In this document: piece after piece, positions 5 through 61,047 of the stretch
How positions within the stretch are numbered: the stretch's first letter is position 1
Layout of the letters: each line of letters begins with the position of its first letter
From: an uncultured Prevotellaceae bacterium
GTDB taxonomy: Bacteria > Bacteroidota > Bacteroidia > Bacteroidales > Bacteroidaceae
DNA length: 64,000 nt
Assembly: GCA_902776545.1 (NCBI GenBank)
Contig: CACYQO010000045.1
Span: forward strand, 1 to 64,000
Direction: 5' to 3'
Notes under the pieces: model-generated
What the model was told of the DNA's origin: nothing
Databases searched by the model: none
What the model saw: only the letters and a program-made list of their open reading frames with translations
Made by a program: the position numbers and the translations under genes

Positions 5-1543
5 ATGGCACAAGAAGATGTATTTAAGAAGATCGTGAGCCACTGTAAGGAGTACGGTTTCGTGTTCCCTTCAAGTGAGATTTACGACGGTTTGGGCGCT
101 GTGTACGACTACGGTCAGAACGGCGTGGAGTTGAAGAATAATATCAAACAGTATTGGTGGAAGGCCATGACGATGCTGCACGAGAACATCGTGGGTATCG
201 ACTCGGCTATCTTCATGCACCCGACGATATGGAAGGCCTCCGGACACGTGGATGCCTTCAACGATCCCCTCATCGACAACCGCGACTCGAAGAAGCGCTA
301 TCGTGCCGATGTGCTGATCGAGGACCAGATTGCGAAGTACGACGAGAAGATCCAGAAGGAAGTGGAGAAGGCCCGCAAGCGTTTCGGCGACTCGTTCGAT
401 GAGGCTAAGTATTTGGAGACTTCGGAGCGCGTGAAGGAGACGAAGGAGAAGCGCGACGCCCTCCACGCCCGTTATGCGGCTGCCATGCAGGGTCCGGATC
501 TCGACGAGCTGAAGCAGATCATCCTCGACGAGGAGATCGTCTGCCCCATCAGCGGCACCAGGAACTGGACGGATGTGCGTCAGTTCAACCTGATGTTCTC
601 TACGGAGATGGGTGCCTCGGCAGATGCTTCGATGAAGATATACCTGCGTCCAGAGACGGCTCAGGGTATCTTCGTGAACTACCTGAATGTGCAGAAGACT
701 GGCCGCATGAAGATCCCCTTCGGCATCGCCCAGATCGGTAAGGCGTTCCGTAACGAGATCGTCGCCCGTCAGTTCATCTTCCGTATGAGGGAGTTCGAGC
801 AGATGGAGATGCAGTTCTTCGTACAGCCCGGCACGGAGCTGGAGTGGTTCCCGAAGTGGAAGGAGACGCGTATGAAGTGGCACCAGGCTCTGGGCTTCGG
901 CGCTGAGAACTACCGTTTCCACGACCACGACAAGTTAGCTCACTATGCCAACGCCGCTACCGACATCGAGTTCAAGATGCCGTTCGGCTTCAAGGAGGTG
1001 GAGGGTATCCACAGCCGCACGAACTTCGACTTGTCGCAGCACGAGAAATACTCCGGCAAGAGCATCAAGTACTTCGATCCTCAGACCAACGAGAGCTACA
1101 CGCCGTACGTCATCGAGACGTCAATCGGTGTGGACCGTATGTTCCTGAGCATCATGTGTCACGCCTTCGAGGAGGAGAAGCTGGAGAACGGCGAGACCCG
1201 CGTGGTGCTGAAACTGCCTGCAGCCCTGGCTCCTGTGAAGTGTGCTGTGATGCCGCTGGTGAAGAAGGACGGTCTGCCCGAGAAGGCCCGTGAGATCATC
1301 GACCAGCTGAAGTTTCACTTCAACTGCCAGTACGATGAGAAAGACTCTATTGGCAAGCGCTATCGTCGTCAGGATGCCATCGGCACGCCGTATTGCGTCA
1401 CCGTCGACCACGACACGCTGAACGACGGCTGCGTCACCTTGCGTTTCCGCGATACGATGGAGCAGGAGCGTGTGGCCATCAGCGAGCTTAACGGCATCAT
1501 CGAGGATAAGGTGAGCATCGCCTCGCTTCTGAAGAAGCTTTAA
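5..1543 (+). CDS. glyS: Glycyl-tRNA synthetase, alpha2 (single-chain) type
   Basis: Charges tRNA-Gly with glycine in the cytoplasm; class II synthetase of the homodimeric type found in Bacteroidetes, eukaryotes and archaea rather than the alpha2beta2 bacterial type. The 512-residue length is normal. Motif 2 (FRNEIVARQ, about residue 249) and motif 3 (GVDRMFL, about residue 375) are visible. A C-terminal anticodon-binding domain runs from about residue 405 to the end (GKRYRRQDAIGTP, CVTLRFRDT). The start is the ATG at base 5; its promoter and ribosome-binding site lie outside the window. The TAA stop overlaps the first bases of a short-unit array that continues into the next gene. Function is secure. 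Confidence 0.96.
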   Translation: MAQEDVFKKIVSHCKEYGFVFPSSEIYDGLGAVYDYGQNGVELKNNIKQYWWKAMTMLHENIVGIDSAIFMHPTIWKASGHVDAFNDPLIDNRDSKKRYRADVLIEDQIAKYDEKIQKEVEKARKRFGDSFDEAKYLETSERVKETKEKRDALHARYAAAMQGPDLDELKQIILDEEIVCPISGTRNWTDVRQFNLMFSTEMGASADASMKIYLRPETAQGIFVNYLNVQKTGRMKIPFGIAQIGKAFRNEIVARQFIFRMREFEQMEMQFFVQPGTELEWFPKWKETRMKWHQALGFGAENYRFHDHDKLAHYANAATDIEFKMPFGFKEVEGIHSRTNFDLSQHEKYSGKSIKYFDPQTNESYTPYVIETSIGVDRMFLSIMCHAFEEEKLENGETRVVLKLPAALAPVKCAVMPLVKKDGLPEKAREIIDQLKFHFNCQYDEKDSIGKRYRRQDAIGTPYCVTVDHDTLNDGCVTLRFRDTMEQERVAISELNGIIEDKVSIASLLKKL

Positions 1544-1656
1544 AGGTGAAAAGGTGAAACATTGAAAGGTGGAAAAATGAGTATGAGGCATATATTGAGA
1601 AAAGGGGTGATAGGTGTTTCACTTTTTCACCTTTTCACCCTTTCACTTTTACTATT
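1542..1656. repeat. Short-unit array hairpin spanning the FKBP-gene start
   Basis: Units of the type AAAGGTGAAAAGGTGAAAC begin inside the glyS stop codon (1542-1560). A reverse-complement block lies at 1616-1656. The two 19-nt arms at 1542-1560 and 1616-1634 pair with one mismatch and enclose the start codon of the downstream lipoprotein gene. The right arm is translated as the hydrophobic core of its signal peptide. Confidence 0.8.
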
Positions 1657-2209
1657 CACATCTTGCTCTGAGGAGAACAACGAAGAGGACGAGTATGCCA
1701 ACTGGCAGGAGCGCAACGACGCACAGATAGACCAGTGGGCAGCGGGAGCCAGCAACGGTATGTATCGCAAGATCCTGACCTTTGCCAAGAACGAGTCGGC
1801 ATCGGGTCTGACGAACAGCGACTATATCTATGTGGAAGAAGTGGAGAAGGGCAGCGGCACGGAGAGTCCCATCTATACGGACAACGTGCGTGTGGCCTAT
1901 CGTGGACGTTACATCCCGACCACGAGCTATCCCGAAGGCTATGTGTTCGACCAGACATTCGTCGGCGACTTCTCCTGGGATACAGCGGATATGGCAGACG
2001 TGACTACGTATGGTGTAGTGGAGGGTTTCTGCACTGCCCTGATGCACATGCACAAGGGAGACCGCTGGATCGTGCATATCCCCTACAAGTTGGGCTATGG
2101 CACCTCGACGTCTTCGGGCATCCGTGCTTATAGCAACCTGACGTTCGATATCGCCATGTTGGAGTTCTGGCCTCAGAATGAGGAAATAGAAATATTCAAG
2201 AGCCGATAG
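1577..2209 (+). CDS. FKBP-type peptidyl-prolyl isomerase, lipoprotein
   Basis: Predicted lipid-anchored prolyl isomerase of the cell envelope. ATG 1577 gives about 210 residues; an in-frame TTG at 1562 lies in the repeat array and is less likely, and ATG 1583 is an alternative. A lipoprotein signal ends in LLLFTSC with the lipidated Cys at residue 30. An FKBP fold is seen from about residue 90 (TDNVRVAYRGRYI, VFDQTF, GVVEGFCTALMHMHKGDRW, VHIPYKLGYG), with the usual spacing of FKBP strands and the GxxxGxxxM-like turn. The hydrophobic signal core is translated from a reverse-complement copy of the upstream short-unit array, which is unusual. Substrate unknown. It follows glyS by 33 bases and may be co-transcribed. 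Confidence 0.85.
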   Translation: MSMRHILRKGVIGVSLFHLFTLSLLLFTSCSEENNEEDEYANWQERNDAQIDQWAAGASNGMYRKILTFAKNESASGLTNSDYIYVEEVEKGSGTESPIYTDNVRVAYRGRYIPTTSYPEGYVFDQTFVGDFSWDTADMADVTTYGVVEGFCTALMHMHKGDRWIVHIPYKLGYGTSTSSGIRAYSNLTFDIAMLEFWPQNEEIEIFKSR

Positions 2210-2220
2210 CTTTTTGGGCT

Positions 2221-3027
2221 ATGCAAAAGTATGCTGACTATATCCGAAGAATAGAGATCGACTCGCTCTGGAGCGGGAAGAAACACGTGGTGTGGGAACT
2301 GAACCGTCAGGTGAATATCCTAAGCGGCATCAACGGTGTGGGCAAGAGCACCATCCTCAACAAGATCATCAAGAGTGTGAACACTAACGGCGACATCATC
2401 AACCACCTGTTGAAGGGGGTGCATATCGATGTGGAGCCTGCCGATGCCACGCATATCCGCTTCGACATCATCCGTTCGCTCGACTCTCCCATGCTCGACA
2501 ATGAGACGTTGAACATGGTCGATACCCGTATCCGTTCGGCGCTTGACTTCCAGCTCTTCCACCTGCAGCGGAAGTACCTCGACTATCAGGTGAACATCGG
2601 CAACCGCATCATCGAGCAGTTGCAGCAGGGGCATGCCGATGCCGCCCAGCAGCTGTCACAGAAGAAAAGCCGCTTCCAAGATATCATCGACGATCTGTTC
2701 ACAGAAACGGGCAAGACGATCGTCAGGACGGAGAACGAGATACGGTTCTCGCAGATCGGCGAGACGCTGGTGCCCTATCAGCTGTCGAGCGGCGAGAAGC
2801 AGATCCTGGCTATTCTGCTCACCGTGCTGGTGGAGGATAACCAGCCCTACGTGCTCTTCATGGATGAACCCGAAGTGTCGCTCCATATCGAGTGGCAGAA
2901 GCGCATCATCGACCTCTGTCTGGAACTGAATCCGAATGTGCAGATCATCCTGACCACACACTCACCTGCAGTCGTCATGAACGGCTGGGTCGATGCCGTA
3001 ACGGAAGTCACGGATATAACTGTATAA
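2221..3027 (+). CDS. AAA/ABC-type ATPase (OLD/AriA-like)
   Basis: A 268-residue ATPase with Walker A GINGVGKST (residues 36-44), an ABC-type signature LSSGEKQ (about 188-194), Walker B VLFMDEPEVSLH (about 211-222) and a switch His in TTHSPAVV. This layout is that of the SMC/RecF/OLD-type AAA_15/AAA_21 ATPases. The region between Walker A and the signature is short, so there is no long coiled coil. It starts 11 bases after the FKBP gene and is followed at once by a DUF4435 gene. By analogy with PARIS (AriA ATPase plus AriB DUF4435 nuclease) and OLD nucleases, the ATPase may sense or regulate and the partner may cut; this is inference. A housekeeping role is equally possible because the flanking genes are core genes. 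Confidence 0.82.
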   Translation: MQKYADYIRRIEIDSLWSGKKHVVWELNRQVNILSGINGVGKSTILNKIIKSVNTNGDIINHLLKGVHIDVEPADATHIRFDIIRSLDSPMLDNETLNMVDTRIRSALDFQLFHLQRKYLDYQVNIGNRIIEQLQQGHADAAQQLSQKKSRFQDIIDDLFTETGKTIVRTENEIRFSQIGETLVPYQLSSGEKQILAILLTVLVEDNQPYVLFMDEPEVSLHIEWQKRIIDLCLELNPNVQIILTTHSPAVVMNGWVDAVTEVTDITV

Positions 3028-3033
3028 ATTTAG

Positions 3034-3096
3034 CAATGGACTACACGACTTAACGACAGAATAGAGTCCTATAGTCCTGTAGTCCTTTGCAAAAAG
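3034..3096. repeat. GGACTACAGGACT-type hairpin array, copy 1
   Basis: The left arm has GGACTACACGACT; the right arm repeats AGTCCT(A/G)TAGTCC and ends in TTTGCAAAAAG. The same organisation recurs at 14458-14529 and 19966-20051. It fills the gap between the ATPase and its DUF4435 partner. The TTG in TTTGCAAAAAG opens an in-frame but probably false start for the next gene. Confidence 0.8.
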
Positions 3097-3104
3097 ATGA
3101 ATTG

Positions 3105-5193: not shown

Positions 5194-5196
5194 CTA

Positions 5197-8055: not shown

Positions 8056-8085
8056 ATTTCACTTTTCACTTATCACTTTTCACTT
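8056..8085. repeat. AAGTGAAAAGTGA array between dxs and trkA
   Basis: On the minus strand the dxs stop (TGA) is followed by GAAAAGTGATAAGTGAAAAG-type units right up to the trkA ATG. No Shine-Dalgarno-like sequence stands apart from the array. Confidence 0.75.
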
Positions 8086-12623: not shown

Positions 12624-13307
12624 ATGAAATACGTAAGTCTGCCTGAGGAGCGATTTCGACCGCTGTCGTTTTACTTGGCGATGGAGGATCATCTGGCACA
12701 GCACATGGAGGGTGACGATGAGGAATACCTGTTCATGTGGCAGGTGGAGCCCAGCGTGATCTACGGTCGCAATCAGGTAATGGAGAACGAGGTGAACCTG
12801 GACTACTGTCGTGAGCACGGCATCCGGGTGTATCAGCGGAAGAGTGGCGGCGGCTGTGTGTATGCCGATCAGGACAATCTGATGCTGTCGTATGTGACGA
12901 GGGAAGAAAACGTAGGCTTTGCCTTCAACTGCTTTGTGACGATGGTGTTGCTGGTGCTCAGGAAGATGGGCATCGAGGCGACGGGTACCACACATAACGA
13001 TATCATGATCGGCGAGAGGAAACTTTGTGGTACGGCGTGCAGAAAGACCGCGAAGGGTTGCATCGTACATTCGACCATGCTCTACGACACGAACATGGAC
13101 CACATGCTCAACGCCATCACCCCGGGTCCGGAGAAGTTAGAGAAGAAAGGTATCCAGAGCGTGCGCCAACGCATCACCTTATTAAAAGACTATACGTCGC
13201 TGAGCCTCGACGAGGTGAAGACGCTCATCCGGAAAACCCTCTGCCAAGGTGAACGAATGCTGACGGAGAAGGAAATATGTATAATAGGTGAAAAGGTGAA
13301 AGAGTGA
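12624..13307 (+). CDS. lplA: Lipoate-protein ligase family protein
   Basis: Predicted to attach lipoate to the H protein of the glycine cleavage system and other lipoyl domains. The 227 residues form a BPL/LplA/LipB catalytic domain with QRKSGGGCVYAD (lipoate-binding RRxSGGGxVYHD motif, about residue 71) and NDIMIGERKLCGTACRK (GxKxxGxA, about residue 125). It lacks the C-terminal accessory domain of E. coli LplA, so it may work with a partner or as a transferase. It is the first gene of the gcv operon. Its last residues (GEKVKE) and its TGA stop are supplied by a GGTGAAAAGGTGAAA array. Confidence 0.85.
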   Translation: MKYVSLPEERFRPLSFYLAMEDHLAQHMEGDDEEYLFMWQVEPSVIYGRNQVMENEVNLDYCREHGIRVYQRKSGGGCVYADQDNLMLSYVTREENVGFAFNCFVTMVLLVLRKMGIEATGTTHNDIMIGERKLCGTACRKTAKGCIVHSTMLYDTNMDHMLNAITPGPEKLEKKGIQSVRQRITLLKDYTSLSLDEVKTLIRKTLCQGERMLTEKEICIIGEKVKE

Positions 13308-13348
13308 AAAGGTGAAATAAATCGTAAATTCGTAAATCGTAAATAAAT
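13287..13348. repeat. GGTGAAAAGGTGAAA array plus TCGTAAATTCGTAAA array
   Basis: The first array encodes the lplA C-terminus and stop. It runs into a second family with units AATCGTAAAT that reaches to the gcvT ATG. The second family also occurs in frame inside lpdA (18856-18895). Confidence 0.78.
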
Positions 13349-14457: not shown

Positions 14458-14529
14458 TTAGCAACGGACTACAGGACTCAAAAGACTTGCTCTAAAAGTC
14501 CTTAAGTCCTGAAGTCCTTTGCAAAAAAG
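14458..14529. repeat. GGACTACAGGACT-type hairpin array, copy 2
   Basis: The left arm GCAACGGACTACAGGACT and the right arm AAGTCCTTAAGTCCTGAAGT fill the gcvT-gcvH gap. As in copy 1, the right arm ends TTTGCAAAAAA, whose TTG makes an in-frame upstream start that I do not accept. Confidence 0.8.
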
Positions 14530-14924: not shown

Positions 14925-15063
14925 TTCTTCCCCTCCTAAGTTAGGAGGGGTTAGGGGTGGTCTGAACAAGCGCATTGCCTGAGGCGGTTCTTGCGTCCCT
15001 TCGGTAGCAAGCGTCTTCGGCCGAGCGCAGACCCCTCTAACTCCCCCTAACTTAGGGGGAGAA
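14925..15063. repeat. CCCCTCC/GGAGGGG palindromic element, copy 2
   Basis: Lies between gcvH and gcvPA inside one operon. Order: CCCCTCCTAAGTTAGGAGGG stem, GGTGGTCTGAAC box, spacer with TTCTTGCGTCCCTTCGGTAG, a CCGAGCG motif, inverse half-box CAGACCCCTC, and closing stem CTCCCCCTAACTTAGGGGGA. It would place a long hairpin in the operon mRNA. Confidence 0.85.
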
Positions 15064-31873: not shown

Positions 31874-32503
31874 ATGATTGAGTATATAAAAGGAGAACTG
31901 ACGGAACTGACACCTGCGCTGGCGACGGTGGAGGCAGGGGGCGTGGGCTACGGCCTGAGCATCTCGCTGAACACCTTCAGCACCCTGCAAAGTGGAAAGT
32001 GGAAGGAGGAAAGTGGAAAGAAAATAGTGAAACTGTACGTCTATGAGGCGATACGCGAGGATGCGCATGTGCTCTTCGGATTTGTGAACAAGAAGGAGCG
32101 CGAGATGTTCCTGCAGCTCATCACGGTGAACGGGGTGGGGGCGAACACGGCGCGGATGATGCTGTCGGGCATGAGCGTGAGCGAACTCTGCAACGCCATC
32201 TCGACGGGTAATGCGCGACTGATACAGGGTATTAAGGGCATCGGCAAGATGACGGCACAGAGAATTATCGTGGATCTGAAGGATAAGATCGTGGCGCTGG
32301 GTATTGCTGATCAGACCACCCCTGGCCCCTCCTACTCAGGAGGGGAAGCTGCCGCTGTGGTGAAGGAAGAGGCCGTGAGCGCCCTGACGATGCTGGGCTT
32401 CTCGCCGGCACCGACACAGAAGGTGGTGCTGCAGATCCTGCAGGAACAGCCTGACCTGCCGGTGGAGCAAGTGGTGAAACTGGCGCTGAAGCAGATTAAA
32501 TAG
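31874..32503 (+). CDS. ruvA: Holliday junction DNA helicase subunit RuvA
   Basis: Binds Holliday junctions as a tetramer and directs RuvB-driven branch migration. The 209 residues begin MIEYIKGELTELTP. The two helix-hairpin-helix regions are visible (LQLITVNGVGANTARMML and IQGIKGIGKMTAQRII), as is domain III (ALTMLGFSPAPTQKVV), which contacts RuvB. Two unusual in-frame inserts are present: QSGKWKEESGKK (about 39-50) from a GTGGAAAG array in the domain I barrel, and QTTPGPSYSGGE (about 147-158) from a half palindromic element in the flexible linker before domain III. Both positions should tolerate loops. Confidence 0.94.
   Translation: MIEYIKGELTELTPALATVEAGGVGYGLSISLNTFSTLQSGKWKEESGKKIVKLYVYEAIREDAHVLFGFVNKKEREMFLQLITVNGVGANTARMMLSGMSVSELCNAISTGNARLIQGIKGIGKMTAQRIIVDLKDKIVALGIADQTTPGPSYSGGEAAAVVKEEAVSALTMLGFSPAPTQKVVLQILQEQPDLPVEQVVKLALKQIK
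31988..32022. repeat. In-frame GTGGAAAG array in ruvA
   Basis: Units AAAGTGGAAAGTGGAAGGAG and AAAGTGGAAAG are read as QSGKWKEESGKK in domain I. Confidence 0.82.
32310..32348. repeat. Half palindromic element in frame in ruvA
   Basis: TCAGACCACCCC box followed by a CCCCTCCTACTCAGGAGGGG stem, read as QTTPGPSYSGGE. It corresponds to the distal half of the element family. Confidence 0.85.
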
Positions 32504-32703
32504 AGGAAAGTGGAAAGAGGAAAGAGGAAAGAGAATACTAAATACAAAGAAATGATTATCAGGGCATTTGGGAAGAAGAATGTCTTGATCATTTTTGCTT
32601 TGTTATATGTTATTGTCTCTTTTGCTGTTTATACTCCTTCTTCAGAAATATCTCCGAGCATGGAGAATTCTCTTTCCACTTTCCACTTTCCTCTTTCCTC
32701 AGA
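32502..32703. repeat. GAGGAAAGTGGAAAG hairpin array spanning the sov start
   Basis: The left array (32502-32533, GAGGAAAGTGGAAAGAGGAA-type) begins at the ruvA stop. The reverse-complement array (32668-32700, CTTTCCACTTTCCACTTTCC-type) is inside the sov coding sequence and is read as SLSTFHFPLSS. The sov start codon lies in the loop. Confidence 0.82.
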
Positions 32704-42023: not shown

Positions 42024-44215
42024 AATCTATTTGGAAAAGGCTGAGCGGAATTGTCAGGCATAATCTGCCGCTGACGCTGATTATCGGGGCGGCGCTGTTG
42101 CTGCAACTGACATCGGGGGTGCTGTACTACTCGGCGCAGAATATTATCCACAAGACGGTGGAGAAATTGATAGAGCGCGAGATGAACGCCATCTATCTTT
42201 GTATTCAAAACAAACTGGCTAAGGTGGAGGTGACGGTTGATAACATGGCGTGGGTGGTGGCCGATGATTTGGAGGATCCGGATTGGATGTATTCGATTAC
42301 CCAAAGGCTGGTGGAAAATAACCCTTCCATCTTGGGATGTACGGTCTGCTTCGTGCCGGACTACTACCCGCAGAAAGGACACTGGTATGAACCATATGCC
42401 GTGAGAAGGACTGACGGAACCGTTGAGACCATGCAGTTAGGCTCGGCAGGGCACGACTATACGAAGTTGGACTTCTACACGGAGACGATGGCCAAGAATG
42501 AGGGCCACTGGTGCGAGCCTTATTTTGACAAGGACGGGGCCAAGGCGATGGTGACCACTTATAGTGTGCCAGTGTGCGACGACAAAGGTAAGACGGTGGG
42601 TGTCGTGGGTGCGGACATTGCGTTGGATTGGCTCGAGGAGGTGATGGAAGAAGGAAAGACGTACAAGAGCACCCAGCGGTATATCGTGACTGATAAAGGG
42701 CATCTGCTGGCAGGTAAGGATAGCGAACTGCTGCAAATGGCGCTTCAGCTGGTGAAGGCTGATGAAGATAAGATGAGTTTTGAAACCATTACAGATGAAC
42801 ACGGCGATGAGCGTCATGTGTATTTCCATCCCGTCGGTGGTAATACAAACTGGATCCTGGTGAGCGTCCAGAATGATAAAGAAGTGTTCAGCAAACTGGG
42901 TAAAATACGCACAACCCTCTTGCTGCCCGTACTTGTAGGTCTGATACTGATTGGGTTTATCGTATGGCGCACGTCACGCAACTTGGAGCGTCTGCGTAAG
43001 GTGAAGGCCGAGAAGGAACGCATTGGCGGCGAACTGCGCGTGGCCAGTCAGATACAGCAGAGCATGCTGCCCCACAGCCTTATACAGCATGCCGATGTGG
43101 ATATCTTCGGGTCGTTGGTGCCTGCCCGTGAGGTAGGCGGAGACCTGTATGATTATTACATCCGCGACGAAAAACTGTTTTTCTGTATCGGTGACGTCAG
43201 CGGCAAGGGAGCCCCGTCGGCGATGGTCATGGGTGTCATCCATTCCTTGTTCCGTGCCTTCTCGGCTCACGAGAATAATCCTGCCCACATAATGCATGCC
43301 ATCAATGAGATTTCATGTCAAGGCAATGAGTCGAATATCTTCGTGACCATGTTTATCGGTGTGCTCGATTTGCCGACGGGTCGTTTGCGCTACTGCGATG
43401 CCGGTCACGACGCGCCGATTGTAATCGAGGAACGAGGAAGGAGAAACGAGGAAGGAGGAATGAGAGAAGGAGAGAGAATTGTTCATATCTCAGTGAAGCC
43501 TCATTTGCCTGTCGGGGTGTTCGAGGACGTAAAGTATGGTATGCAGGAAACGCAGTTGAAGCCGGACTCTACGCTGTTCCTCTATACCGATGGACTGACA
43601 GAGGCGAAGGATGCCGGGCGCAAGCTGTTTGGTATGAAACGAATGGAAGAGGTGCTTCGAGGCGACTGCCCGATTCAGCCCCGAGAGCTGATCGAGGCCA
43701 TCACCAGGAGAGTACATGAGTTTGTCGGTGATGCCGAGCAGAGCGACGACCTGACGATGCTGGCCATCCACTATACGCCAAAGCACTTCGAGAGCAGACT
43801 GACAGAAACGCTTCTGATCAAGAACGACGTACGCGAAGTGTCGAAGTTCAGTGAGTTCGTAAAGTCGGTGATGGAGAAACTGAACGTTGAGAAATCGCTT
43901 GCCCGTCAGTTCCGTCTGGCTGTCGAGGAGGCTGTGGTGAATGTGATTGACTACGCCTATCCTGCCGGAAAAGAAGGTGACATTGAGGTACGCATGATGT
44001 TCGACGGCGAGACATTGAAGACGGTCATTATCGACTCTGGCGTGGCCTTTGACCCCACAGCGAAGGAACGAACCGACACTTCACTTTCTGTAGAAGACCG
44101 TCAGATAGGCGGGTTGGGCATTCTGTTGGTACGCGAACTGATGGACTCCATCAACTATGAGCGTGCAGACGGGCAGAACTTCCTGACGCTGATTAAAAAA
44201 CTAAAAACGATATAA
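42011..44215 (+). CDS. SpoIIE-type PP2C phosphatase with sensor and HATPase domains
   Basis: A 734-residue membrane-bound signalling protein. Two transmembrane segments (about 20-45 and 297-317) enclose a periplasmic dCache-like sensor (about 50-290, with GADIALDWLEEVM). The cytoplasmic part has a SpoIIE/PP2C domain (about 355-590; VPAREVGGDLYDYY, GDVSGKGAPSAM, YCDAGHDAP, YTDGLTEA, QSDDLTM) and a C-terminal anti-sigma-type HATPase domain (about 610-734; RLAVEEAVVNVIDYAYP, GLGILLVRELMD). With the STAS protein it forms a self-contained partner switch. The only plausible start is GTG 42011, which lies in a repeat array. An in-frame Glu/Arg-rich array insert is at about 474-490. It is followed two bases later by the NRPS gene. 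Confidence 0.9.
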   Translation: MESEKSIWKRLSGIVRHNLPLTLIIGAALLLQLTSGVLYYSAQNIIHKTVEKLIEREMNAIYLCIQNKLAKVEVTVDNMAWVVADDLEDPDWMYSITQRLVENNPSILGCTVCFVPDYYPQKGHWYEPYAVRRTDGTVETMQLGSAGHDYTKLDFYTETMAKNEGHWCEPYFDKDGAKAMVTTYSVPVCDDKGKTVGVVGADIALDWLEEVMEEGKTYKSTQRYIVTDKGHLLAGKDSELLQMALQLVKADEDKMSFETITDEHGDERHVYFHPVGGNTNWILVSVQNDKEVFSKLGKIRTTLLLPVLVGLILIGFIVWRTSRNLERLRKVKAEKERIGGELRVASQIQQSMLPHSLIQHADVDIFGSLVPAREVGGDLYDYYIRDEKLFFCIGDVSGKGAPSAMVMGVIHSLFRAFSAHENNPAHIMHAINEISCQGNESNIFVTMFIGVLDLPTGRLRYCDAGHDAPIVIEERGRRNEEGGMREGERIVHISVKPHLPVGVFEDVKYGMQETQLKPDSTLFLYTDGLTEAKDAGRKLFGMKRMEEVLRGDCPIQPRELIEAITRRVHEFVGDAEQSDDLTMLAIHYTPKHFESRLTETLLIKNDVREVSKFSEFVKSVMEKLNVEKSLARQFRLAVEEAVVNVIDYAYPAGKEGDIEVRMMFDGETLKTVIIDSGVAFDPTAKERTDTSLSVEDRQIGGLGILLVRELMDSINYERADGQNFLTLIKKLKTI
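43428..43482. repeat. In-frame GAGGAACGAGGAAGGAG array in the phosphatase gene
   Basis: GAGGAA/GAAGGA/GAGAAA units are read as EERGRRNEEGGMREGERI in the PP2C domain, between YCDAGHDAPIVI and VHISVKPHLPVG. No stop or frameshift. Confidence 0.82.
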
Positions 44216-44217
44216 CA

Positions 44218-47200
44218 ATGAAGACATTTGCACCATTATCAAAAGTACAATATGGCCTCTATGTAGAGTGTGTAGCTCATCAGGGAGAGGCTTGTTATAA
44301 CCTTCCTTATCTCTACGTACTCGACGGTACGCTGGACGGGGACAAACTTTGCCGGGCCATTGAGACCGCTGTGGCAGCACATCCCACGCTGTTCACACGC
44401 ATCGAACTGAATAGCGAGGGCGACCCCCTTCAGACCATCGACGATTCTGAGACGTTTACGTTGGATATTGAACATGGAACATTGAACATTGAAAATGGAG
44501 GCACTTTCAATGGTCAGCCGCTCATCACGCCCTTCGACATCTACAAGGACCGTCTGTTCCATATCCGCCTGCTGAAGGATGTGGAGCATTTCTACTTCTT
44601 CCTCGACATCCACCACATCATCGGCGACGGCACCACCCTGAAGGTGATGCTCAGCGACATAGACAAAGTCTATGGTGGCGGTACGCTGGAACCAGAGGCG
44701 ATGACAATGGCAGAGGTGGCGACGGCTGAGGCAGAGCTACGTAAGACGGCTGCCTTCGACGAAGGCAAGCAGTGGTATGCACAGAACTTCGACTGCGGCG
44801 ACTGCTTCACCCAGCTGATGCCCGACCTTGAGGAGCCGGAGCATAGCGAGGCCAGTATGGTGAGGACGCTCGACGTGGAGATGGCTGAGGTGGACGCATT
44901 CTGCAAGGAGAAAGGTATCTTCAAGAGCAATTTCTTTACGACGGCCTATAGTTTTCTGCTGGCCAAATATAATAATGAACAGGAGTCTCTGTTTACTACG
45001 ATCTACAATGGACGAAGCGACAAGCGCTTCCTGCACTCCGTCGGTATGACGGTGAAGACGCTGCCCGTGTATGCTAAGTTTGACAATGAAACCAAGGTGC
45101 TTGACTATCTAAAGGCAGGTCAGGATCAGATGGGCGGTGTACGCAAGCACGAGGCTTATGCCTTCAGCGATGCCGTGAACGACCTGGGCATCCAAAGCAA
45201 CTCGATGTTCGCCTGGCACGGCACAATGTTTGCCGACGAGCAACTATGCGGCAAGCCGATGAAGACCATCCGCCTCTGCAACAGCACGCTGGAGGCTTCG
45301 CTCTATCTGAAGGCGTTCATCCTCAACGGCAAGTATCAGGTGAAGGCTGAATACAACAGCAACGAGTATTCCGAGGAGATCATCCGTCAGTATTTAGAGA
45401 GCTATGAGGCTGTGATAAAAGGATTCCTCAGCAAGGAGTTTCTGCGTGAGGTCAATATTACAACGGCCAGTCAGATGGAAATGCTCGACTGTTTCAACCA
45501 GACCGATGTGGACTACGATGACACACAGACCATCGTCTCGCAGTTCCGTCGTCAGGCCAAGGCCACACCCGAAAACATCGCCGTGGTCTATAAGGACAAA
45601 CGATATACCTATAAGGATGTGGACGAGATCAGCGACCGCATCGCAGGCTACGTGGCTGCCAAGGGGCTGGGCGCAGAGGATGTGGTATCAGTCCTGATAC
45701 CTCGTTGTGAGTGGATGGCCATCGCCTCGCTTGGCGTACTGAAGGCAGGCTGTGCATATCAGCCTCTCGACCCCACCTATCCCAAAGAGCGTCTGAACTT
45801 CATGATGCAAGATGCCAATGCCAAGCTGCTGATAGCTGACGAGGAACTGCGAAGCATCGTGGATGAATACCAGGGCGACGTATTGTTAATTGAACATGGA
45901 AAATTGAACATTGAAAATGAAGCTATGCTCAGTCAATCTTCAATCATCAATCTTCAATCTTCAATAACCCCCTCCAGCCTCTTCATCCTACTCTACACCT
46001 CCGGTTCTACGGGTGTGCCCAAGGGCTGTCAGCTGATGCACAGCAATCTTGTCTGCTTCTGTCATTGGTATCAGACTTTCTATGGCCTGAAGCCTGAGAA
46101 CAAGGTGGCAGCTTACGCCAGCTATGGATTTGATGCCTGCATGATGGACATGTATCCTGCCCTGACCTGTGGCGCGACGGTGCATATTGTCCCAGAGGAG
46201 CTGCGACTTGACCTGATAGCCCTCAATGACTATTTCGAGCGTGAAAATATTACCCACTCGTTTATGACTACGCAGGTGGGTTACCAGTTTGCCTCAAACA
46301 TTGAGAACCACTCGCTGAAGTTCCTTTCAACTGGTGGTGAGAAGTTAGCATCGCTGACACCTCCGAAAGATTACCAGTTTTATAACGTGTATGGTCCTAC
46401 GGAGACAACTGTCCTGATCACCAGGTATCATGTCGATCAGAAGATGAAGGACATCCCTATTGGCAAGGCGCTTGACAATGTCCATCTCTATGTGGTTGAT
46501 CCGCAGGGACATCGCCTGCCGGTAGGTGCAGCAGGAGAATTATGGGTCAGTGGCCCGCAGGTGAGCCGGGGTTACCTGAACCGTCCTGAGAAAACGGCAG
46601 AAGTGTATATCGGTAATCCCTTCACAGATGATAAAAAGTACGCCCGTGTTTATCGCTCTGGCGACATCGTGCGCTATCTGCCCTCTGGCGACATCCAGTT
46701 CGTAGGCCGTCGCGACGGACAGGTGAAGATCCGTGGTTTCCGCATCGAGCTGAAAGAGGTGGAGGCCGTTATCCGCGAATTCCCTGGCATCAAGGACGCT
46801 ACCGTGCAGGCTTTTGATGAGGAAGGGGGTAGCGGAGGAAAGTTCATTGCCGCCTACATCGTCAGCGATCAGCAAATCGACATCGAGGCACTCAACAACT
46901 TCATCATGGATCAGAAACCGCCTTACATGGTGCCTGCCGTGACGATGCAGATTGAGACTATCCCTCTGAACCAGAACCAGAAGGTGAACAAGCGTGCCCT
47001 GCCGAAGCCGGAAAGGACGAGGAAAGAGGAAGGAGGAACGAGGAACGAGGATGCGCCGATGAATGTATTGGAAGAGGAGTTGCATGAGATGATAGCCGGC
47101 ATTGTGAACAATAAGGATTTCGGCATCACCACCATTCTTGGCTATGCAGGACTGACCTCCATCTCCGCCATCAAACTGGCCGTCCAGATGAACAAGCGCT

Positions 47201-50200
47201 TTGGCATCATGCTTGACTCAAAGTCGCTGGTGAAGAGCGGCACCCTGCAGAGCATTGAGAATGAAATATGGAAATCGTTTCTCGAGGAAGGAGGAAAGAG
47301 GAAAGAGGAAGGAGATATGTCTGCCGCAGAGAATTCTCCCTCCACTCTCCACCTTCCACCTTCCACTAAAGTTCCACTCTCCTATGCTCAGACGGGTGTC
47401 TATTTCGAGTGTCTGAAGAATCCCACTTCGACGGTTTACAATATTCCTTATCTGCTCAGTTATCCTGCTGGCATCGAGGCAGACAAACTGGCTGCTGTCG
47501 TCAAGCAGGTGGTGGAGGCCCATCCTGAGCTGAGCGTTCACTTCGCCACAGAGGGTGATAAGATCATTCAGACCTTAGCAGACAGTCTGCCTGTGAAGGT
47601 GCCCGTCACAGAGATGAGCGATGATGCGCTGACGGTCTATAAGAATGAGTTCGTGCGACCGTTCAACCTGAATAAGGCACCGCTCTACCGCTTCGAGGTC
47701 GTGAAGACCGGAAGTGGAGTCCATCTGCTTTTGGATGTTCATCACCTCGTGTTCGACGGTGGTTCTGCTGATCTGCTGATTCGTCAGATAGGCTCAGCGC
47801 TCGAAGGGGCGGCTGTCGAGAAAGAGAACTATACCTATCTCGATTTCGTCATCGACCAGCAGAAGGCTGAGGAGAGTGAAACCTTCAAGGCCGCCCAGCA
47901 GTTCTTCGCTGAGAAGTTGCAGACCTGCGAAGGAGCGAGTGAGATTCCTGCCGACCTGCCCAAGACAGACCAACTGGGCTTTATCGGTGAGGCTGTCTGT
48001 CCGGCGGATTACGACAAGGCTGCCGCTTTCTGCCGCCAGCAGGAAATCACACCAGCTCACCTCTTCCTCGCAGCCACGAGTTACGTCATATCACGCTACA
48101 CCAACAACCGTGAGGTATATCTGAGCACCATTAGCAGCGGCCGTTCTAATCTGAAGATTGCCGATACGGTGGGTATGTTCGTTAATACCCTCGCCCTCGG
48201 ATTGAAGATCGACGATGTGACGGTGAGCGAATACCTGAAACAGGTGAGTGAGACCTTCGACGAGACGTTGCGCCATGAGGACTATCCCTTCGCCCGTATC
48301 GCTACCGACTTTGGTTTCATGCCCGCTATCGCCTACGCCTATCAGGTGGGCGTGCTGTCGCAGTATACGGTCAATGGTCAGCCCATCCAGCAGGAACTGT
48401 TGGAGCTGAATGTGCCCAAGTTCAAGATCAATATCAAGATTGAGTCGCGTGGCGTGGTGGTGCAGTATGACGATGCCCTCTATTCAGCCGCTTTGGGCAA
48501 CGCCATTGCTGAGAGTATCGTGGCTGTTGCCGAGCGTATCATCGCCCAGCCACAGATGAAGGTTCGCCAGCTCTCCATCATCAGCAAGCGTCAGGAAGAA
48601 GAACTGTCACACCTGCGTCAGACGGCAACAGGCGATGCGCCGTTCAAGTTCTTCCATGAGTGTATCAGTCATTTCGCACAGACCCAGCCCGACCATGAGG
48701 CTTTGGTGGCCATTGATGCCAAGTTCACTTACAAGGAGATGGATGAAGCCACGAACTGTATTGCTGCCGCTTTGCGTCAGAAGGGTGTACAAGAGCGCGA
48801 CCGTGTGGCCCTGCTGTTGCCGCGTACCAGCAGGCTGATCCTCTCACTCTTCGGTGTGCTGAAGGCTGGAGCTGCCTATATCCCTTGCGATCCGGATTAT
48901 CCAGCAGACCGCATCAAACTGATTCTTGAGGACAGTGAGGCCCGTTATATCATCACGACAGCCGACCGCATGGACAGCGTGCCTGCCGACAAGGCCATCA
49001 ATGTGGAAACCCTCCTCACTTCTCCTTCCTCCTTCCTCCTTCCTCCTTCCTCGAACATTACTCCCGATGACCTCGCATACCTCATCTATACCTCAGGTTC
49101 CACAGGTCGTCCGAAGGGCGTCATGCTGCGCCACGAGGGTATCTGTAATTACCTCTACGGCCATCCGGCCAATGTCTTTGCCAATGGCGTACTGACGGAT
49201 GCAGACCGTGTACTCAGTGTGACGACCATCTCGTTCGATGCTGCCCTGCAGGATATCGGTATGGCTTACTACAACGGTAAGACGCTGATTGTGGCTACTG
49301 AGGAGCAGGCCAACAACCCGCTCGACCTCGCTCAGCTCATTCAGGAGCAGCATATCAATATGGTGTCAGGCACACCGTCCCGCTGGCAGACTTGGCTCAC
49401 GAGCGACGATTTCTGCAAGGCCATCTCGCAGGTGAAGATCTGTCGTGCCGGTGGTGAGAAGTTCAGCGATGCGCTCCTGCAACAGATGCGCAGCGTCACC
49501 AAGGCCCGCATCTTCAACTGCTATGGTCCTACGGAGATTACCGTCGCCTCGAACAATGCGGAACTGACGAATGCCCAGATGGTGACTGTTGGTAAGCCAC
49601 AGTTGAACGTCAAGGAGTTTATCGTCGATGCCGATGGCAACGAACTGCCTGCTGGCGTCGTCGGCGAGCTCTATATTGGTGGCCGAGGTGTGGCGCGTGG
49701 CTATAACAACCTCGACGAGATGACCCGTGAGCGTTTCGTGGAGTATCACGGCATTAGGATCTATAAGTCGGGCGACTATGCGAAATGGCTGCCAGATGGT
49801 AATGTGGTCATCCTCGGACGTACCGACCACCAGATCAAACTGCGTGGCCTGCGTATTGAACTCGGTGAGATTGAGAATGTGATGCTCTCCGTGGAAGGCA
49901 TGAAGAAGGTGGTGATCATGATTCGCAAGCTGAATGACAAGGAGCACCTCTGTGCCTACTACACAGCCGATCATGAGATTGCGCCCGACGCCTTGAAGGC
50001 TGAGATCTCCAAACGCCTGACGCAGTATATGGTGCCCACGGCCTATCTACAACTGGCAGAGATGCCGATGACGCCCAATGGCAAAACTGATGTGAAGGCA
50101 TTGCCCGAGCCGCAGCTTGCCGTTACCTCGGCGTTTGTGGCCCCTGCCAATGATACGGAGAAAGCGTTCTGCGACATCTTCGCACAGATCCTGCAGATGG

Positions 50201-54075: not shown

Positions 54076-54140
54076 ACCACAGATTACACAGATTAACACT
54101 CATTTAATGTTTTTTTCTTAAAAATCTGTGTAATCTGTGG
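54076..54140. repeat. Perfect 18-bp inverted repeat between divergent promoters
   Basis: CCACAGATTACACAGATT at 54076-54093 and its exact complement at 54123-54140, with a 29-base T-rich spacer. Each arm is itself two units of ACAGATTA. It lies between the nadB promoter and the promoter at 54152. Confidence 0.9.
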
Positions 54141-55399: not shown

Positions 55400-55401
55400 C
55401 A

Positions 55402-55560
55402 GAAGTGAAAAGTGATAAGTGAAAAGTGAAAAATATAGAATTTAAAGTAATTAGTGAAAAGCGGATAGCGAGAGGTGAAAAGTATATGGTTGTTAATAGC
55501 ATGAGGTGGTGGAGATTTCTGCCACTACTTTTCACTTTTCTCTTTTCTCTTTTCACTTCA
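55402..55560. repeat. AAGTGAAAAGTGATAAGTGA hairpin array spanning the dacB start
   Basis: Forward units at 55403-55433 and 55454-55482 (GTGAAAAGCGG, GGTGAAAAG). Reverse-complement units CTTTTCACTTTTCTCTTTTC at 55528-55557 are translated as the signal-peptide core LLFTFLFSLFTS. The start codon lies in the loop. Confidence 0.82.
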
Positions 55561-56739
55561 TTCGTGCAGGCACAGAAGTTGCCTGAGGTGTCGCTGTTGC
55601 GACAAGACACGGGCGAGGTGATGCTGCCTTGGCCCGTAAACGTACAGACACGATTAGACAGTTTGGTAAAAGACACTTTGTTCGAGCGGACACAACTCGG
55701 ACTGATGGTCTATGACCTCTCTGCCGACTCCGTGCTTTATAGTTATGGTGGCAAGCAGGCCCTTCGCCCTGCCTCGACGATGAAACTGTTGACATCTGTC
55801 GCCGCCCTCGACCTGCTGGGCAGCGGCTATGCCTTTCGTACCTATCTTTATTATAAGGGAACCATCTCCAAGGGTGTGCTTTCGGGCGATGTGTGGCTCG
55901 TGGGAGGCATGGATCCGCTCTTCGACGAGAGGGACATGCGTATCTTTGCCGAGACCATCCATCGGATAGGGGTGGACACCATCCGTGGCCGTATCATGCA
56001 GGACCTCTCCTTCAAGGAGGAACAACTGTTGGGTGAGGGCTGGTGCTGGGATGACGACAACCCACAGCTGACACCGTTGTTGATATCCGGCAAGGATGAG
56101 TTTGCCAGCCAGTTCAAGGACGAGCTGATGAAGTGCGGCGTCTTTGTCGATGCCCCCGTCTCTACAGGTCGTCTCCCGAAGGATAAGGATGTGTTGCTCA
56201 TCTGTTCCCGTTCCCATGCACTCCGTGAGGTGCTGGAGCCGATGATGAAGGAGAGCGACAACCTCTACGCCGAGTCGATGTTCTACCAGATTGCGGCATC
56301 CATAGGTAAGCGTCCTGCAGAGGCGGTACACGCTCGTCAGCTGATCAAACAGCTGTTGACGAGGGCAGGTGTCACAGGCGTGCAGTATCGTATTGCCGAC
56401 GGCAGCGGACTGTCGTTGTATAACTATGTGACGCCGGAACTGATGATTCGTCTGCTGCGCTATGCCTATCTGAAGCGCGACGTGATGGCTGCGCTTTATC
56501 CGTCACTTCCCGTGGCGGGTGTCGACGGCACGTTGAAGAAACGAATGACGAAGGGGTTTGCGTATGAGAATGTGCATGCGAAGACGGGCACGGTGTCGGG
56601 TGTCTCGTCGCTGGCAGGCTATTGCAGGTCGGCCAACCGTCATCTGCTGGCTTTCTGCATCATCAACCAGGGTGTGATGAAGAATGCCGATGGGCGCAAC
56701 TTCCAGGACAAAGTCTGTGAGGCGATGTGTAAACCGTAA
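55486..56739 (+). CDS. dacB: D-alanyl-D-alanine carboxypeptidase/endopeptidase (PBP4, S13)
   Basis: Periplasmic peptidoglycan carboxypeptidase. ATG 55486 or 55501 gives about 412-417 residues with a signal peptide ending SFVQAQ. An upstream GTG at 55426 is inside the array and is rejected. S13 catalytic motifs are visible: PASTMKLL (SxxK), KESDNLYAESM (SxN) and HAKTGTVSGVSS (KTG). The domain inserted between SxxK and SxN is short, as in other Bacteroidetes enzymes. The hydrophobic core of the signal peptide is encoded by the reverse arm of the array. It is followed by a MscS-type channel gene after 15 bases. Confidence 0.92.
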   Translation: MVVNSMRWWRFLPLLFTFLFSLFTSFVQAQKLPEVSLLRQDTGEVMLPWPVNVQTRLDSLVKDTLFERTQLGLMVYDLSADSVLYSYGGKQALRPASTMKLLTSVAALDLLGSGYAFRTYLYYKGTISKGVLSGDVWLVGGMDPLFDERDMRIFAETIHRIGVDTIRGRIMQDLSFKEEQLLGEGWCWDDDNPQLTPLLISGKDEFASQFKDELMKCGVFVDAPVSTGRLPKDKDVLLICSRSHALREVLEPMMKESDNLYAESMFYQIAASIGKRPAEAVHARQLIKQLLTRAGVTGVQYRIADGSGLSLYNYVTPELMIRLLRYAYLKRDVMAALYPSLPVAGVDGTLKKRMTKGFAYENVHAKTGTVSGVSSLAGYCRSANRHLLAFCIINQGVMKNADGRNFQDKVCEAMCKP

Positions 56740-56754
56740 ACAATAAGAAAGAGT

Positions 56755-57903: not shown

Positions 57904-57922
57904 GTAGGAGGGGGATGGGCTG
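57888..57922. repeat. Truncated palindromic element at the MscS-type gene end
   Basis: CCCCTCCTGAGTAGGAGGGG stem, then GGATGGGCTGA. It supplies the TGA stop codon and last codons, and it lies between two convergent genes. Confidence 0.8.
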
Positions 57923-57933
57923 ATCCGCCTCTA

Positions 57934-60900
57934 TTACTTCTTCGCCGTGGTGCAGATGTTCACCAGATAGACGATGTTCATATATGGAATGCCTGTGTTC
58001 GTCTCAAGGCCGATCTCACAGGTACGGCTATTCGAGTAGCCTACCTCTATCTGATTCGCCTCAATCTGCGGACGCAGTTTCCTGAGGCCGTACTTGTTCA
58101 GCTCTGGGAAAGTAAAACCGCGGTCTCCGGCAAAGCCACAGCAGCCCACACCCTCAGGCAAGAAGACATTCGTAGAACACAGCTTCGCCAGGGCAATCAT
58201 ATCCTTGTCGACACCCATCTGCCGCGTTGAGCAGGTCAGGTGCAGGGCGATGCGCTTATCCGTAGGATGGAAGTCGAGACGGTCTACGAGATACGTCATG
58301 ATAAACTCTGCCGGCTCGTAAAGTTTCATCTTCTTCATCACCTTCCGCATACGATGCAGACACGGACTCTGAGCACAGAGCACGGGATACTTGCCGTGTT
58401 CTGACGCCTCCCACAGGGCCTGTTCCAGTTCGGCACTCTTACGGTCTGCGATGTCGAGCATACCCTTCGACTCCCAGATCTGTCCGCAGCACATCCGCTC
58501 CATGCCTTCTGGGAAGATCACCTCGTAGCCTGCCTTCGCCATCAGCTGGATGACCTCGTCCACAAGGGCGTGCTTCATCGGACCGTCCTTCGGCTGGCCC
58601 ATCGTCTGGTTGATACAGCTGGGGAAGTAAACGACCTTCAGGTCGGAGTGCTCTTCCTCGTGGTGGGGGATGGATTTCTCGATGATGAACTGCGTGAGGT
58701 CAGACTTCTTCGGCTGGCGCTTCTTACGCGGCATGGCCGTGGTCCAAAGGGGCAGACCCATCTTGTTCATCGTACGGCAGACGGTGGTCATCAGCTTCGG
58801 ACCGAGCGTGACATGAGCCATGTGGGCCACGTCGAGAACGACGCGCAGGCCAGACTTGATGCCTGCCATGTGGTTCGCAGCAAACTCACCTACCTGATAG
58901 CCCAGCGCGTTGTTGTTCATGTCGAGCTGGCGGATGAGATGCGTGAGCTCGCCCGTGTTGATCTTCATCGGACAAGAGGTAGAACAGAGGCCATCCGTGG
59001 CACAGGTCTGGTCGCCATAATACTTATACTGCTTGCGCAACTTGGCAGCCCTTTCTGGGTTGGCACCCGTGGCCTCCAGTTCGCGTATCTCACGCTGCAC
59101 GGCGATACGCATCCTCGATGAGAGCGTCAGGCCGCATGACATACAGTTCACCTCGCAGAAGCCGCACTCGATACATTTGTTCGCACGCTTCACCTGTTCG
59201 ATGGTCTCCTTCGCCGTCGAGAGCTTGGGATCCATCAGGAAGTGTCCGCCGTCTGGCACACTCTTGAAGTCGTAGTCGAGCACGGGCAGCGGCTTCAGGC
59301 ACTTGATGAAGCAGTCGGGATCGTCGTTGAAGATCACGCCCTGGTTCAGCAGTCCATCGGGGTCGAAGATCTGTTTCAGTTCCTTCATCACTTCGTAAGC
59401 CTTGTCGCGCCACTCGTACTTCACGAAGGGTGCCATGTTCCGTCCTGTGCCGTGTTCGGCCTTCAGCGAACCGTCGTAACCCTCCACCACGAGTTTCGCC
59501 ACGTCGCGCATCATATCGGCATAGCGCTCCACCTCGTCCTTGCTCTTGAAACTCTGGTTCAGGATGAAATGGTAGTTTCCCTCGAAGGCGTGACCGTAGA
59601 TGCAGGCATCGTCGTAGCCGTGGTCGGCGATGAGCTTCTGCAGCTTCACCGTGGCCTCAGGCAGACTCTCGATGGGGAAGGCGACATCCTCGATGAGACA
59701 CGAGGTGCCCACAGGACGCGTGCCGCCCACAGAGGGGAAGATGCCTGAGCGGATGGCCCAGTACTTGCCATAGACGGCCGGATCCTCCGTGAACTCCGCA
59801 GGGATATAGAGCCTGAACTTACTCAGGCAGGCCTTGATCTTCTCGATCTTCTCCAGCAGCTGTTCGTGGGTGATGCCCTTCGTCTCAGTGAGGATGGCGG
59901 TCAGGTTGTGGTAGTCGCCAGGATCAGCTCCTGCCACCTTGCCGGCGTCCACATCTTTCTTATATTGCAGGTATACAGGATCGTCGACTGAACTGAGCGA
60001 CTTATAGTCGAGCATCTCAGCCGACTTAACGACCAGATTCTCTGCACTATAGGCCAGATCGTCCTCACCAGCCTTCATTTTCTTCATTGCCACCACGGCC
60101 TCGCAGCTCTCCTTCATCGTATGGAAATAGACCATCGCGGAGGCCTTGTAGGGATAGTCCTTCAGCGTCTTCATCGTCACCTCGGAGAGGAAGGCGAGGG
60201 TACCCTCTGAACCTACCATCGAGTGAGCGATGATGTCGAAGGGATCGTCGTAGGCGATGAGCGGACGGAGGTTCAGACCCGTCACGTTCTTGATGCTGTA
60301 TTTCCTGGCGATGCGCTCTGCCAGATCCTTGTCGGCACGCACCTTGTCGCGCAAGGCCTCGATCTTCTTCAGGAAATCGGGATGACTCTTGCGGAAGGCC
60401 TCTTTGCTCTCCTCTGAGCCCGTATCGAGCACGGTACCGTCGGTGAGGATAATCCTCGCACTCACCATCATGCGGTCGCTGTTGGCATGCACGCCGCAGT
60501 TCATGCCAGAGGCGTTGTTGATGACGATGCCGCCCACCATCGCCGAGCCTATCGAGGCTGGATCGGGTGGGAACACACGGCCGTAGGGCTTCAGAATCTG
60601 ATTCACGCGACCACCCACGATACCCGGCTGCAGCTTGATGGTGTTTGGACTCCTGACTCCTGACTCCTGACTCCAGTCTCCTAACTCATACTTCTCCCAA
60701 TGCTTGCCGGCAACGATAAGCACGCTGTCGGTACAGCTCTGACCACTCAGTGAGGTACCTGCGGCACGGAAGGTGAACGGTAGCTTATACTTCTGGCAGA
60801 GACGTACGATCTTCGAGATCTCCTCCTCGCCATCGCTGCGGAGGACCACTTTCGGAATCTGACGGTAGAAACTGGCGTCCGTTCCCCATCCGAGGGTGCG

Positions 60901-60969: not shown

Positions 60970-61000
60970 AGGTTGCTTGGTTTTTGTTACTACTTTGGTG

Positions 61001-61008
61001 CAAATATA
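61001..61008 (-). promoter_or_regulatory. Bacteroidetes -7 box for the lactate dehydrogenase gene
   Basis: Minus-strand TATATTTG followed by CACC, 32 bases before the ATG at 60969. Confidence 0.72.
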
Positions 61009-61012
61009 CGAA

Positions 61013-61047
61013 AAAAAGTGGAAAGTGGAAAGAGGAAAGAGGAAAGT
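61013..61047. repeat. AAAGTGGAAAGTGGAAAGAGG array in the divergent promoter region
   Basis: Units of GTGGAAA/GAGGAAA end in AAAGTTTTCCCCC. It lies immediately upstream of the lactate dehydrogenase promoter and may contain its -33 region. Confidence 0.75.

Follow-up and report, generated by a model that had tools for sequence, protein, structure and literature searches.

The window analyzed here, positions 1 to 64,000 of contig CACYQO010000045.1 from an uncultured Prevotellaceae bacterium, carries many tandem arrays of short units that are followed, after a spacer, by the reverse-complement array. This mirroring of neighboring arrays is not due to chance. The account that we tentatively prefer, at slightly under an even chance, is that the mirrored arrays represent small non-autonomous mobile hairpins resembling miniature inverted-repeat transposable elements (MITEs) or REPINs, with a core between arrays of 7-9-nt units and with arms that are kept complementary, and changed in blocks, by replication template switching. 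Copies would move as units with the help of some enzyme, the replication fork would copy one arm from the other by fold-back with both changing together, and the 7-8-nt step would be set by the polymerase or copying machine.

The draft genome to which the window belongs, as contig 45, totals 4.22 Mb and likely comes from a rumen Prevotella; its completeness is 93.7% and its contamination 7.6%, so that some few contigs may be foreign. The named relatives closest to it are uncultured rumen Prevotellaceae, above all RUG195, whose gcvPB protein is 98% identical. Genome-level counts were made on a 299-kb sample consisting of the window and 12 further stretches of the same genome, 11 of them on contigs carrying the ACATAAGA family, in which open reading frames (ORFs) were called mechanically.

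Mirrored arrays and their unit lengths

Mirrored short-unit arrays had been predicted at ten places from the letters of the window alone, and inverted arms were present at all ten. The hairpins and the genes they touch are listed below, with the strand where one was assigned.

1542-1561, + strand: 5' arm of AAAGGTGA units, which overlaps a tRNA synthetase gene at the stop codon and lies within the 5' leader of the FKBP gene
1577-2209, + strand: FKBP-type gene with a lipoprotein-signal-like N-terminus (..GVSLFHLFTLSLLLFTSC), whose core is encoded by the 3' arm
1615-1646 (paired part 1615-1634), + strand: 3' arm of TTTTCACC units, within the N-terminal codons of the FKBP gene
3033-3090: GGACTACA hairpin upstream of a DUF4435 gene, from the RNA fold
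10114-10143/10177-10206: ACATAAGA hairpin between divergent dxs-like and ApbA-like genes
14461-14522: GGACTACA hairpin in the gcvT-gcvH gap, from the RNA fold; absent in RUG195
14928-15063: GC-rich hairpin in the gcvH-gcvPA gap
17802-17829/17858-17885: ACATAAGA hairpin in the gcvPB-lpd gap; also in L088, absent in RUG195 (L083)
19289-19315/19348-19374: second ACATAAGA hairpin, after lpd; absent in RUG195
19975-19997/20021-20043: GGACTACA hairpin in the gap between a formyltransferase gene and a diaminopimelate-dehydrogenase-like gene
32503-32536, + strand: 5' arm of GAGGAAA/GTGGAAA units, between ruvA and the large gene at 32552-40174, which we take to be SprA
32667-32700, + strand: 3' arm of CTTTCCA/CTTTCCT units, near codon 43 of the 32552-40174 gene, behind its hydrophobic N-terminus
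54077-54094/54123-54140: CACAGATTA hairpin between two divergent genes
55402-55432, + strand: 5' arm of GTGAAAA units, before the S13 carboxypeptidase gene
55486-56739, + strand: S13 D-Ala-D-Ala carboxypeptidase with a signal-peptide-like N-terminus, MVVNSMRWWRFLPLLFTFLFSLFTSFVQAQ
55503-55526, + strand: shared upstream stretch, TTGGTGGCGGAGAATTCTGCCGCT-like with 5 differences, in front of the S13 3' arm
55529-55559, + strand: 3' arm of CTTTTCA units, encoding the hydrophobic core of the S13 N-terminus

The window contains 11 clusters of inverted 12-mers lying within 250 nt of each other, compared with a mean of 1.05 and a maximum of 2 in 20 dinucleotide shuffles (14-mers, 7 versus 0.1; 10-mers, 28 versus 14.6). 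Random shuffles, which the original prediction had named as a possible source of similar structures, therefore yield about one-tenth as many. Long RNA hairpins, also foreseen, were obtained at all nine of the ten places that were folded, with z-scores from -3.6 to -10.7 and none of 200 shuffles folding as well; the centroid structure of the 1542 hairpin was empty, so its fold ensemble is diffuse. No tRNA and no Rfam family at gathering score was found in the window.

Mirroring was also assessed on 112 arrays located by periodicity alone, with no use of complementarity. Of 26 array pairs neighboring within 200 nt, 15 gave an inverted match at ≥85% and one a direct match, while inverted matches were seen in 4.1% of random pairs from the same catalogue and 4.2% from the same stretch (p = 8e-15). 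The pairs also have a preferred polarity. Taking the first arm of known hairpins as the + strand and calling arrays loosely, we counted 32 +-, 4 ++, one -- and no -+ pairs in the 299 kb. As the + strand was named from the first arm, only repeated pairs within one family are informative on polarity: within 160 nt the +- share was 9/11 for the GTGAAAA type, 7/7 for the GAGGAAA type, 9/11 for ACATAAGA, 3/4 for GGACTACA and 2/2 for GTTTATA, the remaining pairs being same-strand and none -+. The loose threshold is at background for GGACTACA (13 arrays versus 19 in the reversed sequence), and controls with reversed pattern and reversed sequence are uninformative for GTGAAAA because this unit reads identically backwards.

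The units are largely of one length. In the 299 kb, period 7 accounts for 54 arrays, period 8 for 15, periods 9-12 for 10 and periods 14-16, mostly as multiples of 7 and 8, for 30, with none of periods 3-6 and no arrays at all in two dinucleotide shuffles. Tandem units of one length above chance, as in heptanucleotide simple-sequence repeats (SSRs), were thus found for periods 7 and 8, and period 7 is the commonest or joint commonest class in G060, G065, G019 and G018 (24-160 kb each). At a looser threshold there are 92 arrays of periods 7-10, of which 36 are intergenic and 56 lie in predicted ORFs, including those of ruvA and lpd; the earlier work was silent on ORF-internal arrays. The array at 57595 was excluded from use, because this tally had placed it on the wrong strand of a real gene. 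At 43426-49052 in the window, a SpoIIE-type gene and a nonribosomal peptide synthetase gene carry seven heptamer arrays in coding sequence.

Among the other units named in the original prediction, GAACATT (44470), a AATCGTAAAT-like unit (13318-13345), GTTCAAAG (18749), TCTGAGTAT (57595) and GACTCCT (60648) are present, and GGGGGTACG occurs in the window only twice (8360, 8384). No mirrored copies of these six units were seen within the window; mirrored versions of GACTCCT and of a GGGGGTACG-like unit do exist in other parts of the genome (L209:13911, L213:1229).

The families differ in abundance between species. The GTGAAAA 21-mer (≤1 mismatch, overlapping matches included) occurs 269 times here, 107 times in G031, 86 times in G366, and is absent from 60 of 120 genus genomes. 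GTTTATA was counted 82 times here and 75 times in G431, with none in 94 of the 120 genomes. These uneven counts indicate that the families were amplified in some species only. Such restriction, together with units of mostly 7-8 nt and the lack of 3-6-nt units, would agree with a dedicated repeat-writing polymerase (telomerase-like, or a reverse transcriptase of the retron or DRT kind) that copies a short RNA template, with fold-back making the second arm. We consider this highly improbable, since the many units per genome would require many templates and both RVT_1 genes found in the draft genome are group II intron enzymes, which speaks against the reverse transcriptase envisaged earlier; at 93.7% completeness, an overlooked reverse transcriptase gene is possible. 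The two introns lie in L298 and L299 (contigs C61 and C68 of this genome), one of them beside a tRNA.

Discrete elements, shared cores and gaps in relatives

The families divide into compact dispersed hairpins and open arrays. The clearest compact element is that of GTTTATA, about 105 nt long, which consists of four heptamers plus GATGATTA, a core with CTATAGGC and GGCTTGCC, and then the mirror. Its copies in G000, G431, G018 and G060 (29 rows, some of them one element in both orientations) have sharp ends, a conserved core and unrelated flanks. Dispersed, sharply bounded copies as in MITEs were thus shown for GTTTATA, though not for the open GTGAAAA arrays. In one copy from G000 and two from G018, both arms are built of GTTTACA units instead.

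A second group shares the loop core ATCTGCGGCAGGAGTATTCT. Allowing ≤4 differences, this core has five matches in the loci of this genome, all beside arrays and with four kinds of arm unit: GAGGAAA/GTGGAAA (two copies), GAGGAGT, GGAGTCA and CGGAGGTG. One of the five lacks a clear 5' array, and three have AGATTACCTT upstream of the core. With ≤3 differences there is one match in the relatives' loci, in G018, also beside an array. Five shuffled cores gave 1, 0, 0, 0 and 0 matches in a quicker scan, and loop-loop scores of three elements with different arms were 24-26, compared with a shuffled maximum of 19 over 567 pairs. One core with four arm units, together with the 105-nt element showing a heptamer change in both arms, indicates that some unrelated-looking families are one kind of element. 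The earlier interpretation was therefore partly supported: the families do share design rather than sequence, one loop core standing with four arm units, three of which pass the shuffle test, but a single mechanism for all families was not shown. A start-codon hairpin cannot explain the mirroring of two ATCTGCGGCAGGAGTATTCT-type elements (L209:13911, L213:1229), each of which is contained completely in a single predicted ORF.

A core common to all families was sought, and none was found beyond this one group. GGCTGCGC, taken up as a general loop motif, was a lead from ACATAAGA loops only and was dropped. In L005-L029, many ACATAAGA hairpin loops contain GGCTNCGC, now in one orientation and now in the other, as would result from flipping of the loop or from insertion of the element in both directions.

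RUG195 is ~93% identical to our genome and colinear over the compared 13-kb and 19-kb pieces, the alignment being interrupted at arrays. Comparison of orthologous gaps revealed gain, loss and change in unit number. RUG195 lacks the gcvT-gcvH, gcvPB-lpd and post-lpd hairpins. In the gap at 54077 a mirrored CACAAAGGA array of RUG195 takes the place of CACAGATTA, and the gcvH-gcvPA gap holds the GC-rich hairpin here, a mirrored CACGGATTA array in RUG195 and a GTTTATA hairpin in L088. In the gcvPB-lpd gap, L107 and L110 hold mirrored arrays of yet other units, and many relatives have no gap there at all. Related loci lacking mirrored structure, which had been named beforehand as evidence against the pattern, thus exist at several places, and they reflect gain or loss of a real feature. 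In G018 and G019 the ruvA-SprA gap has purine- and pyrimidine-rich arrays of other units flanking the start region on both sides. Further arrays of the window that were compared with relatives are as follows.

8057-8085: AAAAGTG array at a gene junction; 28 nt missing from the relative G065
13286-13317: AAGGTGAA array with a smaller number of units in RUG195; in G065 the site has GTTTATA-like sequence
18749-18782, + strand: GTTCAAA array inside lpd; two relatives have 21 nt less
31989-32020, + strand: AAAGTGG array inside ruvA, 9 codons more than in four 200-aa orthologues
60648-60681, - strand: GACTCCT array inside an FAD-linked oxidase gene, shorter in two relatives
61015-61046: AAAGTGG array common to RUG195; GTTTATA-like sequence at the site in G065

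The lpd and ruvA arrays are gains, and the former has grown from a two-unit seed (CAAAGCTCAAAG in G065). This growth and the variable unit number at 13286 are what ordinary long SSRs enlarged by slippage would show, with mirrored pairs kept by hairpin selection or through the base composition of purine-rich leaders and pyrimidine-rich signal peptides. In two surveys, heptamers are reported as the commonest class of long repeats in most genomes, and slippage is proposed as their origin (PMC4679880, PMC4692102). As a general explanation we find slippage unlikely. In its plain form, one of the generators suggested earlier, it does not explain mirrored arms or the absence of 3-6-nt units, and it leaves unaccounted the dispersal of one unit, the sharp ends with unrelated flanks, the single core with different arms and the mirrored pairs wholly inside predicted ORFs. 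Local unit gain alone thus fails as a full account in view of the mirrored arms, dispersed copies and shared core.

Array-coded N-termini

In unrelated genes, the pyrimidine arm of GTGAAAA, the main heptamer family, encodes hydrophobic N-terminal stretches that resemble signal peptides. TCACTTT reads SLFTFHF, CCACTTT reads PLSTFHF and TCTTATGT reads SYVLMFLC, and all three frames are stop-free. Of 20 distinct places with exact (CTTTTCA)3, taken from the first 30 loci of a longer list of matches, ten have the array at codons 11-31 of a long ORF, where it forms a signal-peptide-like core, for example LFTFHFSLFTSSAQ. The Pfam families of these ten genes (PorZ, Big_5, TonB receptor, GH3, GH43, GH97, DUF1573 and DUF3108, two being without a match) are unrelated, and the window adds two more array-coded N-termini, those of S13 and FKBP. 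In RUG195, the S13 orthologue has no mirrored arm. The array-coded N-termini look like secretion signals. Under the mobile-hairpin account they would function as such, the placement at start codons having perhaps been tolerated first and used later, since the arm codes a stop-free hydrophobic peptide. With the start codon inside the hairpin, as expected in the mRNA, translation might also be affected. Among the papers listed from the open-licence PMC literature, none deals with array-coded or mobile signal peptides, those on the shuffling of signal peptides concerning, by title, mostly recombinant expression; six of the repeat strings had no match there.

A stretch similar to TTGGTGGCGGAGAATTCTGCCGCT (≤6/24 differences) is located directly before the array at seven loci, giving WWR..LPLLFTF-like sequences, whereas three shuffled versions had 0 matches in 520 kb of loci from this genome, which overlap in part. 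The seven loci point to copying of one cassette, which is likely to have moved as a mobile piece; exchange of gene ends by recombination may have produced the same pattern.

The start region of the FKBP gene was compared in 22 orthologues and the window (28 loci fetched, 24 read, two of these without a start found). Inverted arms surround the start codon in 4 of the 23 sequences and belong to three unit families: AAAGGTGA in the window and G013, AAATGAT in G060 and GAAGATAAAA in G018. In all four, irrespective of the unit, the hydrophobic portion of a lipoprotein-like N-terminus is coded by the second arm. The remaining 19 start regions mostly look ordinary by eye, and the leader array of G015 is unmirrored. 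Two FKBP orthologues, L311 (G067) and L312 (G034), have a GC-rich repeat in the N-terminal region (HPSLWE.LGG), so that a further repeat family is used there in a signal-like stretch.

A stronger form of the mobile-hairpin account is conceivable but rather doubtful. It would recognize a class of self-rewriting mobile hairpins in which a constant core spreads while the arms are rewritten as matching 7-9-nt arrays, one lineage having become a transposable cassette of start codon plus signal peptide that gives unrelated exported proteins one secretion signal. A heptamer is coprime with three and would code one stop-free hydrophobic peptide in every frame, so that such a cassette could serve unrelated proteins.

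Candidate enzymes and known systems

A mobilizing Y1 transposase of the RAYT type had been suggested in the original prediction. The genome has three Y1 genes (PF01797 matches, two above the cut-off), but their association with arrays is mixed, so a RAYT role is neither shown nor excluded. The L001 gene is flanked by GGGACAGTCCC palindromes, the L002 and L003 genes have CACAGATT arrays inside and behind them, and ACATAAGA, GGACTACA and GTTTATA arrays were not seen at any of the three loci. The L002 and L003 genes (L002:1318-2217, L003:245-1138; contigs C36 and C80) contain in-frame CACAGATTACACAGATT arrays (EPQITQIA), their alignments to homologues break at about residues 142-176, the site of the arrays, and further CACAGATT-type repeats stand behind their stop codons. 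In L001 and L220-L247, many Y1 genes from this family of bacteria are flanked by GGGGACWGTCCCC or GGGGACGGTTCT palindromes, which in L001 also occur in-frame within the gene.

In the wider survey, Y1 matches were found in 40 of 60 genomes including our own, and 20 loci of relatives were read along with the three own loci. A query with L002 against 301 genomes gave 25 with a match, and 29 of 30 fetched loci were read, several without a recognized ORF. G3-4/C3-4 palindromes of the GGGGAC/GGGACGG kind (≥4 of one word) occur at 16 of the 29 family-wide loci and 3 of the 23 mostly in-genus loci; given these counts, a statement that most Y1 genes have such palindromes would be too strong.

These loci bear on the possibility that there are several unrelated REPIN/MITE families, each with its own transposase (RAYT or other) and without arm rewriting, the differences between species being independent insertions in few permissive gaps and the N-termini having spread by gene-end recombination. 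GTTTATA and ACATAAGA do resemble discrete elements, a REPIN likewise has two inverted copies and a spacer, two of the own Y1 genes have CACAGATT arrays both inside and just behind the ORF, and the in-genus Y1 loci L063 and L075 have other short-unit arrays nearby. We nevertheless regard this explanation as doubtful, since the 16 family-wide loci carry other palindromes and neither one core with four arm units nor GTTTACA in both arms is expected under simple transposition.

The account of mobile hairpins with template-switched arms also faces several contrary observations. No mobilizing enzyme could be tied to any family, Y1 transposases being those examined, and no target-site duplication was resolved when empty and filled sites were aligned, as their junctions differ beyond the insert. 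In the all-versus-all loop comparison, which left out loci with >50 masked bases, only the ATCTGCGGCAGGAGTATTCT group was clearly above shuffled loops. Many GTGAAAA arrays enclose native gene sequence, so not all can have moved as one hairpin. The gcvPB-lpd hairpin is present in the more distant L088 and missing from the closer L083, which requires loss or recombination and argues against simple descent. In the ruvA-SprA gap of G018 and G019 there is no ungapped inverted match of score 12, so mirroring there is suggested by eye only. Some unmirrored FKBP starts of relatives fold about as strongly as mirrored ones (G015, z -4.3; G062, z -3.6), and RNA-fold z-scores do not cleanly separate the two. 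Finally, signal peptides were called by eye and by protein family.

If true, the mobile-hairpin account would name a class of mobile elements uniting sequence families that look unrelated, and new signal peptides could arise by insertion of a ready-made, frame-independent hydrophobic stretch. The dominance of heptamers among long bacterial repeats, an old puzzle, would become open to testing through comparisons of arms, cores and empty sites among closely related species.

REPINs consist of two inverted copies with a short spacer and are dispersed and mostly intergenic. The hairpins described here have the same layout in a genome with Y1 genes, but their arms are tandem 7-9-nt arrays that also occur in ORFs and N-termini, and palindromes of another kind are carried by L001 and by the 16 family-wide Y1 loci mentioned above. 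The BrickBuilt MITE of Porphyromonas gingivalis contains 23-nt direct repeats flanked by small inverted ends and is found in intergenic positions only (PMC4596501). Both are small dispersed Bacteroidota elements with internal tandem repeats, whereas here the repeats make up both mirrored arms. Heptanucleotide repeats have been described for GGGAATC of Xanthomonas and Nostoc (PMC4692102) and for TAACTGA of Beggiatoaceae and some Bacteroidetes (PMC4679880). These share with our arrays the 7-nt units, the frequent position near start codons, the shorter repeat-free gaps in relatives and occasional inverted pairs; our genome differs in having many unit families, frequent mirroring of fixed polarity, cores, and use in ORFs and N-termini. 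Replication template switching can create and maintain hairpins (PMC8794818), with one arm copied from the other, arms changing together and loops that may invert. Those hairpins are single-locus stems, whereas the ones described here have tandem-array arms and occur at many loci.

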